Shown: positions 31,901 to 40,682 of the stretch, in pieces
How positions within the stretch are numbered: position 1 is the stretch's first letter
Layout: every line of letters starts with the position of its first letter
Assembly (NCBI GenBank): GCA_903813345.2
Contig: CAIIXF020000004.1
Location: forward strand, 8,936,196-9,000,195
Origin: Owenia fusiformis
Taxonomy: Eukaryota; Annelida; Polychaeta; Sabellida; Oweniidae
Direction of reading: 5' to 3'
DNA length: 64,000 nucleotides
The notes under the pieces: generated by a model
What the model saw: only the letters and a program-made list of their open reading frames with translations
The model's database searches: none
Told to the model about the DNA's origin: nothing
Translations under genes and position numbers: made by a program

Positions 31901-34900
31901 GTAAGAAAATTAAAATTCAGTAGTTTACGTGTACTTAATTAAACGAATACTTCATTCAATTTAGAAGAATATACCTGTGTATCTTTTATATGTGACATTC
32001 ATGTAGCCTGAACGTCCTGTTGATAAAAGTCAGTTTTTGTTTTTATGTTCATATTACAACCTTTAATCAATTATTTACCCCATACTCACTGTGGCTAGTC
32101 GAAATATGTGGATGCAGTCATGTACATGTTATGTATCGTAAGTGCTCGCGTACACTATAGGGAATGGGGTCATTGTAAAAATATAACAGCAATTCGAGGT
32201 AGGTAATTTCAGAGTTTTTACTAAACATTGAGTTATGAAATATTGCATACATATTCAATATACTATAGTATGACAATATAGGAAAGTTTCAGCTACTACT
32301 ATACATTCCTGTTATAGAGAAGATATTTCAGCAACATTTCGTAAACGTAAACATATATGTATGAATCGGATGCCAATATGTATCATTTGGATCTAGAACG
32401 GTAACAAATGGATGCTATCATAAATTATACTTTTATCATATTGATTTATTTATAGATGAACAACTGGCCAGATTTCCTTTGTATCCATTGCTTGGATAAA
32501 CATTCCACATTCAGTGAAGCAATTGACCACACCCATACAAGACACCCTCATACAGAATTGAAAATTGATAGACTAGATATAAATCCATCGAATGGAAAAT
32601 TCTATTACTGAAGAAAAAACTATGGTTTCATCCCTTATACTGTAAACTTGAAAAATGGGTCCAGAATGTTTTTGTGCAGGTATCACATTTTACAATTTCT
32701 CCCCTGGTGTGGATGCTTTCATGTCTAGTGAGTCTGGAATTGGATGCTAGCTCCTTCTCATAGCCCTGTAAAATAGCAATATCTGATCATGAATTGTGAA
32801 GTTACCCTATCCCTGGTTTTCAATTTATGAATGTGATGTCATTCGTTTTAGGAAAGTTTTAATATAAAACATTTACCTCGAATCAGCACTTTTTCCAAGT
32901 CATTGTTGTTCTTTACCATGCGTATTTGGTGCACTTTTGCTCTCGAAAAGGTTGTCGCATTCTTCGCACGTGTGGCGTGGTGGAGCAGTTCCCTCCACTG
33001 CTTGTACGACAACTAGACCCATTTACAAAATAATTGCAATATATGTATTGAAAATGAAATAAAGATGTCCTTAATCTACTTTTTAAGATACTATGGTATT
33101 TAAAAGTGAAATTCCCATTAGATCTAGTACACATATGTAGATTTTTCCTAATTCCACACATGAGTTAATCTCCAGGCATCACATGCACACCATATACTAC
33201 TTCAAAATTTCATTTTTGTTGTCTTATTGTTCCAACCCATATTTATTCCTATTGTATCTAATAATGAAAGCGTTTAAGAAATACTCGTATATGTAAAATA
33301 TTATAAATACACAAATTCAAAATAATTCAATCATAAACTAGTCAGTCTGATAATTGAATCAAATAATAACGTCCACTGATTAACATGATATATCATAATT
33401 AAATTGTTTTTATAAAAACGGATATTTTATACCATAACTCCAAAAATATTACACAACGCGTTGGATTACTTCACACAGATACATGACATTATTATATTAC
33501 CTGAATTCTTTATTCCCCATTATAAGATATACCTATGGCCAATTATACATACATGTACCTTCTAACAGTTGTGAGCAAGATGATAAAACTGGTCAGGTGA
33601 ACTCGTTTGAGTTATCTGTTTGCCGTAAAAATATCACCGTATGTGTATTTATAGCGTAGCTTTAGTTTGCTAAATCAATGAAGTATGATATACACGGATG
33701 AGTAAATATAGATTATTTAAACTAAAGTGCGAAATTCTTTCATTGAAAAGTACAGAGGCGCGCAATTATGATATATAACATGTACTTGACTGCATCCACA
33801 TATTTCGACTTGCCACAGCGATACTGGGAAGCATTAATGTCAAATGAATTCCATGTCTTGAGTTCATAATAGGTATATAACTTACATTTTAGTTGTCAAA
33901 TATATATTATATAAAAAAGTACAACGTGACTGTAGATTTTGAACACATCATTTCAGGTTTATTTGACATCCTTTTTCACTTATATTTGCACAGTCGATAA
34001 AAAGATATGTCCTTATGATACACTGCGAAGTGTTTTTACGAATATTTTTCGAAACTGAAGATATTCCTGAAATGTTCTATCGTGACGTCATCAACATTGT
34101 TCCCGCAAGCCGATACCCGATGACTCGATATGAAACAAGCAGCAAGTTGTCGTGTATATAATATGGGCTTGATTTCAAGTTTATATGTGTTTGACTTGTA
34201 TCAATAATGAGGATTGTAGCTTGACATTAGTATGAACTTTATCGTCCCGACAATAAGCAAAAACATGGTTGTGAGATCTCGAGAATTTGATTTATTCAAC
34301 AGACCAATGAAAATCAGTCCCTCTTGAAGAGGTGCATTGCGGGAGATATTTATATTAATGACCATGTTTTCGTCTATCACGTATTAAGTCTATTGGAAAC
34401 TTACCTGTAAAACAATATTTGCGTTTTGGATATGACTGGGTTATAGAAGTTCTGTTCATTCAGTAGATCAAATGAAATTAAAGATGAAAATGTAAATAAA
34501 TAATTATAAATTGTTGGAGAGCAGAATAAACAAATTAAATATAAACGAGGACTTTTTACAAGCTACTATTATTATTGCTTAAAAGGATACATATCGAACA
34601 TATTTTGCAGATTAATTTATGTTAATTGGCAGTCTGTCGATATAATGAATCGTGACAGAAAATGCCAAGTTTGCCATTACTTCATGAACACATCAAATAT
34701 ACGTATATATTTATTAAAGTCCATTACATTCCCGTATTTTGGAGTGTCTTTGAATATGTTTAAGACTAATCGAAATTGTATTTTTCAAGGCCCGACATGT
34801 TTATGATTTTCCAGGTACACACTGATATATACTGGTTTATACGACGATTTCATTTATGCATGATGGAAAGTCTCTTTTTTCAAGGCCCATTGTGTTTATA

Positions 34901-40682: not shown

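Follow-up and report, generated by a model that had tools for sequence, protein, structure and literature searches.

The window analysed here is a stretch of 64,000 nucleotides from the annelid Owenia fusiformis (assembly GCA_903813345.2, contig CAIIXF020000004.1, positions 8,936,196 to 9,000,195). It carries the carboxylesterase gene B, which has two paralogues, A and C. The first intron of gene B contains a tandem array of copies of its own boundary with exon 2, interrupted by a mariner transposon. The features of the locus are listed below in window coordinates; here and further on, a slash within a sequence marks a junction.

31470..31900, forward strand: exon 1 of carboxylesterase gene B, ending CATGGAGGCGG/GTAAGA (Pfam COesterase, 3.4e-37; gene model)
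31901..38445, forward strand: first intron of gene B (6,545 nt), holding the decoy array and the mariner
34769..35013, forward strand: 5' part of the array, units 1 and 2 and the left of unit 3
~35014..36948, reverse strand: mariner transposon in unit 3, ends approximate to a base or two
36949..38398, forward strand: 3' part of the array, made up of units 4-18 after the right of unit 3; some of it forms a dimeric ~195-bp higher-order repeat
38399..38445, forward strand: intronic portion of the real unit (number 19); its acceptor, the true one, reads ...ATTTTCCAG
38446..38575, forward strand: exon 2, its first ~46 nt being the repeated part, donor CAG/GTAACC (frame and paralogues)
38917..39080, forward strand: exon 3, containing GESSG, which we take to be the nucleophile motif (gene model)
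39293..40117, forward strand: exon 4 (Pfam and gene model)
40460..40682, forward strand: exon 5, to the stop (end computed from the model length)

Exon edges throughout this work rest on Pfam hits and reading frames. In the five-exon model of gene B, the introns are of the GT-AG type and the reading frame stays open for 590 aa; two of the joins tried stayed open, and the one chosen keeps the conserved end of exon 4 and reaches the stop. The dN/dS ratios (NG86), calculated from exons 1 and 4, are 0.231/1.446 for A and B (419 codons) and 0.28/1.39 for B and C (400 codons); with silent sites near saturation, these values indicate constraint since the duplication and not constraint at the present day. 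Gene B is thus judged intact from its open 590-aa frame and from dN/dS well below 1 relative to the paralogues. Within exon 2, the repeated part diverges more among the paralogues than the remainder does; this is also true of A compared with C, in neither of which an array was found at that exon. Upstream of exon 1 of paralogue C, a 378-bp unit is present twice (48500-49264, 92% matches).

In the array, 19 junctions of the form CC[A/G]GGTACAC are located between 34811 and 38442. They are spaced by 82-100 nt, with a single gap of 2032 nt. Eighteen of them lie upstream of the exon 2 acceptor and the 19th is the real one; the preliminary description of this stretch, made from the sequence alone, had counted up to 17 acceptors before the correct one. 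In each unit, the CCAG acceptor stands between ~47 nt from the end of the intron and ~46 nt from the start of exon 2. Iterative alignment of the units with the real copy, from -47 to +46 around the junction, gives 80-97% identity, which bears out the composition of the units proposed in that description. The AG is retained in 17 of the 18 upstream copies, the exception being CCGG at 38253, and GT directly follows the junction in all 18. Moreover, the full GTACAC is found after the junction of the real acceptor and of every decoy. Four units (34983, 37115, 37310, and 37863) have a second TTCAGGTA[CA]AC, 15 nt upstream. The units had been called near-identical, which is generous: the mean distance among them is 0.14 and the maximum is 0.235 (18 of the 19 units, the split unit 3 being omitted), and exact identity to the real site from -20 to +6 is found in 2 of the 18 decoys.

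Tandem Repeats Finder detects a period of 95 bp and a superimposed two-unit period of ~195 bp, and unit distances reveal two alternating unit types in part of the array. On the tree of units, the real copy occupies a zero-length branch and most decoys are diverged; the surrounding nodes are poorly supported. The most diverged unit is unit 1. The sequence that precedes it, GACTAATCGAAATTGTATTTTTC, may be the original intron end, as read by eye.

The interval 34805-38576 had been described as a tandem array. Its units are real, and about half of its length is the mariner at ~35014-36948. This element has two open frames: one contains a Mos1-type HTH and partial transposase domains (Pfam), and no Pfam family was matched by the other. 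Its terminal inverted repeats are ~188 nt long with 93% identity. A 301-nt piece of the mariner has at least 25 copies at 99-100% identity in the genome, the window copy included (40 of 128 candidates scored), so the element has spread recently and the gene B array is older than the insertion. Two further repetitive regions can be noted in the window. A degenerate minisatellite with a ~25-bp unit and longer periods of 147-270 bp is located at 1055-2466, and LINE-like open frames are located at 21721-24650, where 22790-23293 matches reverse transcriptase (Pfam RVT_1).

The unit derives from gene B's own exon 2 boundary, as had been supposed. A search of the 498-Mb assembly with 38346-38575 (very common words skipped, 4 candidates scored) matched only the gene B array and exon 2 of genes A and C, and within this scope no second copy of the gene B locus was matched. 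A dispersed element as the identity of the array was rejected on the same result. Tandem Repeats Finder (score of at least 50) found no array at exon 2 of A or C, in agreement with the preliminary description.

When exon 1 is joined to any of the 18 upstream copies, an in-frame stop follows. In 13 of them it is codon 16, close to the position given earlier for most units; in the others it is codon 3, 5, 8, 27, or 35. The use of an upstream unit would thus truncate the frame, as was previously suggested. The stop at codon 16 is the TGA at the seam between the exon part of one unit and the intron part of the next (GCA/TGATGG in most units), where the real exon 2 reads GCAGTGATTGG. In arrays of alternative exons of the Dscam type, every unit is a complete open exon. 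Such an array was rejected for gene B, since none of the 18 upstream units stays open: each meets an in-frame stop after 3-35 codons.

Arrays of this sort are present at the boundaries of other genes. Survey regions were hand-picked around family hits. For COesterase, 99 places were listed; 26 were cut as loci, long exons being favoured, and 33 regions were taken from the remainder. For P450, 32 regions were taken from 106 places listed. One carboxylesterase locus (L102) was added later, its neighbours having arrays. The numbers of units and pieces given below come from iterative alignment. In total, nine boundary arrays were found in eight genes, gene B included. Of the eight further arrays, seven belong to six carboxylesterase genes other than gene B and one to a probable P450 gene; both donors and acceptors are affected. 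Besides the donor array of the carboxylesterase locus L054, which has 8 units, they are located as follows.

G000:C6:33573217-33577224, 429-524 and 549-1223: L026, carboxylesterase, arrays at both ends of one intron
G000:C1:19961000-19965555, joined coordinates 1354-2788: L100+L043, carboxylesterase donor array, exon ending IVVVTFNYRIGPL
C7:38736410-38790800: L044, L045, and L102, clustered paralogues with 54-57-bp donor-side arrays
G000:C12:16071725-16076727, reverse strand: L082+L101, probable P450, 86-bp acceptor array

The L026 acceptor array contains 9 units; the real acceptor is TTTTAG, and seven of the eight decoys read TCAG. The donor array of the same intron is weak: it has 3 pieces, 2 of them with a junction, and the sole extra junction lacks GT. 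The L100+L043 array has 26 pieces in the alignment, and the junction is present in 22 of them. It includes 30 exact copies of CCATTAG, followed by GT in 27 cases (the real one included) and by GTAAG in 22. The L044 and L045 donor arrays have 10 pieces each. L102, the third member of this cluster, has a 54-bp unit, and CAGTAAGT sites number 7 in L044, 10 in L045, and 6 in L102. The units of the three genes are alike by eye, the intron part included, so their arrays probably predate the gene duplications. The L082+L101 array, the sole boundary array among the 32 P450 regions, contains 9 pieces, of which all but one have the junction, and its units alternate between two types much like those in part of the esterase B array.

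Five array-bearing exons were tested against the Pfam COesterase profile, those of L026 (both sides), L100+L043, L054, and L102, and all exceeded the cut-off. The array exon of L082+L101 matches P450 weakly (E 0.0024, below the cut-off), and is assigned to this family because a good P450 exon lies just downstream of it.

The decoys of these arrays also lead to stops. This is the case for all seven decoy acceptors with a junction in L082+L101 and for all eight in L026, one of which stops only after 77 codons. In both acceptor arrays, as in gene B, the frame continues only via the copy at the exon body. In all six donor-side exons, read-through beyond the first donor runs into a stop; the distance is a few bases in L044, L045, L102, and L054 and ~65 nt in L026 and L100+L043. 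Because the first decoy GT of L100+L043 (1428) precedes the stop, the decoys of that array need not all truncate the frame.

Several other tandem arrays were not counted as boundary arrays. Two of them are in P450 introns (L074, 1189-1853, and L091, 545-840); their edges come within ~15 nt or less of a splice site, which itself lies outside the array. The arrays of L075, L078, and L086, from the P450 survey as well, are away from the surveyed exon. Those left out of the boundary count at carboxylesterase loci include arrays of L009, L028, L029, L037, L056, and L066.

The conservation of the decoy splice sites was compared with that of the unit as a whole in seven arrays, leaving out the L026 donor and L102. 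After rows identical to the real copy were dropped, the splice dinucleotide was kept in 70 of 74 copies versus 61.1 expected from all unit dinucleotides, these copies being related and not independent. This slight apparent excess is suggestive at best. Windows kept as well as or better than the splice window amount to 6 of 84 in gene B, 2 of 42 in L044, and 4 of 47 in L045; the corresponding numbers are 40 of 74 in the P450 array, 29 of 37 in L026, 20 of 38 in L043, and 34 of 76 in L054. Strong selection on decoy splice sites is not claimed here, since no more than three of the seven arrays show a clearly well-preserved splice window.

As for the placement of arrays, 13 were detected in 64 loci of the survey (period at least 30, score at least 150, copies at least 1.9). 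A splice boundary lies inside five of them (L043, L044, L045, L054, and L082) versus 0.8-2.2 expected under a simple random-placement model, with P from 0.001 to 0.054 depending on the number of exons assumed per locus. L044 and L045 are paralogous, so that at most four of these cases are independent. The count above this model suggests that the capture of boundaries may go beyond pure chance. An enrichment of arrays at boundaries is not claimed, as the result is borderline and model-dependent and includes related loci.

Tandem duplications of exon/intron boundaries have been named mirages in amphioxus (PMC3087553, PMC3902484). The gene B array belongs to this known kind of structure: its units are tandem and extend across an exon-intron boundary, and AG or GT signals are kept in many of them. 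In the amphioxus genes described there (Adh3, the globins BflGb6 and BflGb9, and the PGBD5 and TnC repeats), the end of an intron with the start of an exon, or the donor side, is likewise duplicated in a minisatellite-like manner. Many units carry AG or GT, and the dynamics is that of tandem turnover, with unit identity of 81-100% in BflGb6. The amphioxus mirages seem to leave regular splicing undisturbed, and their copy number varies between haplotypes, one gene having 6 units in one haplotype and 3 in another (PMC3087553). The present arrays also differ from the amphioxus examples. The host is an annelid, both ends of one intron are affected in L026, and the gene B array reaches 19 units and that of L100+L043 26 aligned pieces, versus 3-6 units in BflGb6.

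Internal tandem repeats of human segmental duplications resemble the present arrays in being minisatellites across exon-intron boundaries of recent paralogues. They yield novel introns with transcript support, whereas the arrays described here are known from genomic sequence alone (PMC2812944). Intron gain via tandem duplication is an established idea (PMC4974935). Earthworm intronic minisatellites have been described and are not placed across splice sites in the available text of the report (PMC12783039). In the literature searched, no report of an annelid boundary array of the mirage kind was found.

We consider that the gene B array is probably a nearly neutral minisatellite, a mirage that captured an exon edge, in which the last copy would be spliced and errors discarded. 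The array may have grown by tandem duplication through slippage or unequal exchange, partly in two-unit steps. The copy attached to the exon body has to remain intact, and growth would therefore be possible only toward the intron. The last copy is most likely the one spliced, and exon definition could account for this, since no other copy continues into the body of exon 2 with a donor at normal distance. The choice of an upstream copy would bring an in-frame stop within 3-35 codons, and the transcript would presumably be degraded at a low cost. With mis-splicing costing so little, the array would be close to neutral, its length would drift, and the mariner insertion would have been absorbed. 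Against neutrality, the decoy splice dinucleotides appear to be kept slightly above the unit average, which drift alone need not give. The number of boundary-holding arrays, somewhat higher than random placement predicts, and the weakness of the L026 donor array also count against this explanation.

The main mechanistic rival to exon definition and decay is resplicing via AG/GT units. A mistakenly chosen unit might act as a donor and be spliced again to later copies until the last one is reached, so that the error would be repaired and not discarded. We regard this as rather unlikely for gene B. By the GTRAGT donor consensus, the GTACAC of all gene B copies is a poor donor, and it differs in this from the donor half of Drosophila recursive ratchet points. 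Furthermore, GT after AG is absent in the other two acceptor arrays, where L026 has GGG, GG, or TT and the P450 array has CTAAGC; the AG/GT arrangement is therefore not general and may come from the first bases of exon 2 itself. What speaks for resplicing is the presence of GTACAC in all 18 decoys, preceded by AG in 17, and two precedents. Ratchet points are acceptors juxtaposed with donor-like sequence within an intron (PMC8605326), and the order of AG followed by GT is the same in these 17 gene B copies. In the human UBC gene, tandem dual-specific AGGT sites are spliced between repeat units (PMC10809524); AGGT is shared with 17 of the 18 upstream gene B units, but the UBC units are ubiquitin monomers, whereas the esterase B unit is ~95 nt long with an in-frame stop.

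The preliminary description had allowed both for a neutral minisatellite with a captured exon edge and for a tuning of esterase B output by copy number. The former is better supported, since similar arrays at the donors and acceptors of other genes fit a general mutational process better, and nothing was found in support of the latter. A regulatory role, with upstream acceptors competing with the real one and array length setting the output, appears unlikely to us. The AG kept in 17 of 18 copies, the two decoys identical to the real site from -20 to +6, and the stops in all 18 would suit it; against it are also the splitting of the array by a recent mariner insertion and the published mirages, which seem not to disturb splicing (PMC3087553). 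Unit divergence and a transposon in the intron could mean that gene B is decaying and that the array persists since splicing no longer matters. This is very improbable given the 590-aa open frame, the GT-AG introns, and dN/dS well below 1, albeit with silent sites near saturation. Finally, tandem arrays are difficult to assemble, yet an assembly artefact is scarcely credible here: the units are not identical (mean distance 0.14), a mariner interrupts them, and other genes carry arrays built of different units.

Beyond the nearly neutral mirage at gene B, a broader, less probable interpretation is put forward tentatively. A genome-wide, ongoing process in Owenia fusiformis might tandemly amplify splice boundaries, donors and acceptors alike, perhaps in a targeted way linked to transcription or splicing. 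The spliceosome would then pass over look-alike sites and take the copy attached to the exon body, errors in AG/GT arrays would be erased by a second splice, and the arrays would be a source of new introns and of shifts in exon ends.

The choice of the spliceosome among near-identical sites is usually studied with engineered reporters. Boundary arrays are natural experiments on this choice. Gene B presents 18 acceptor copies before one exon, and L100+L043 presents 30 CCATTAG donor contexts, 27 of them followed by GT. In L026, the real site has TAG, and CAG, nominally the better of the two, is found in seven of the eight decoys. Should splicing always take the real site, the choice cannot be a matter of local site strength. 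The arrays may also represent an early stage of intron gain or of a shift of the exon edge.

Outside the window, three places in the assembly match, above the cut-off, a Pfam family that we take to be the annelid haemoglobin linker. Homeodomain hits are distributed over contigs C1-C12 and three small contigs, with a cluster on C1 and another hit ~0.5 Mb from it; the Hox cluster of O. fusiformis has been described on chromosome 1, with Post1 apart (PMC9977687). Two other observations concern homeodomain sequences. One open frame of 1,717 codons with four homeodomain matches is located at G000:C262:14791-17163, and a tight run of seven homeodomain matches is located at G000:C5:39469706-39483441; open frames of 329-364 codons contain six of these seven.
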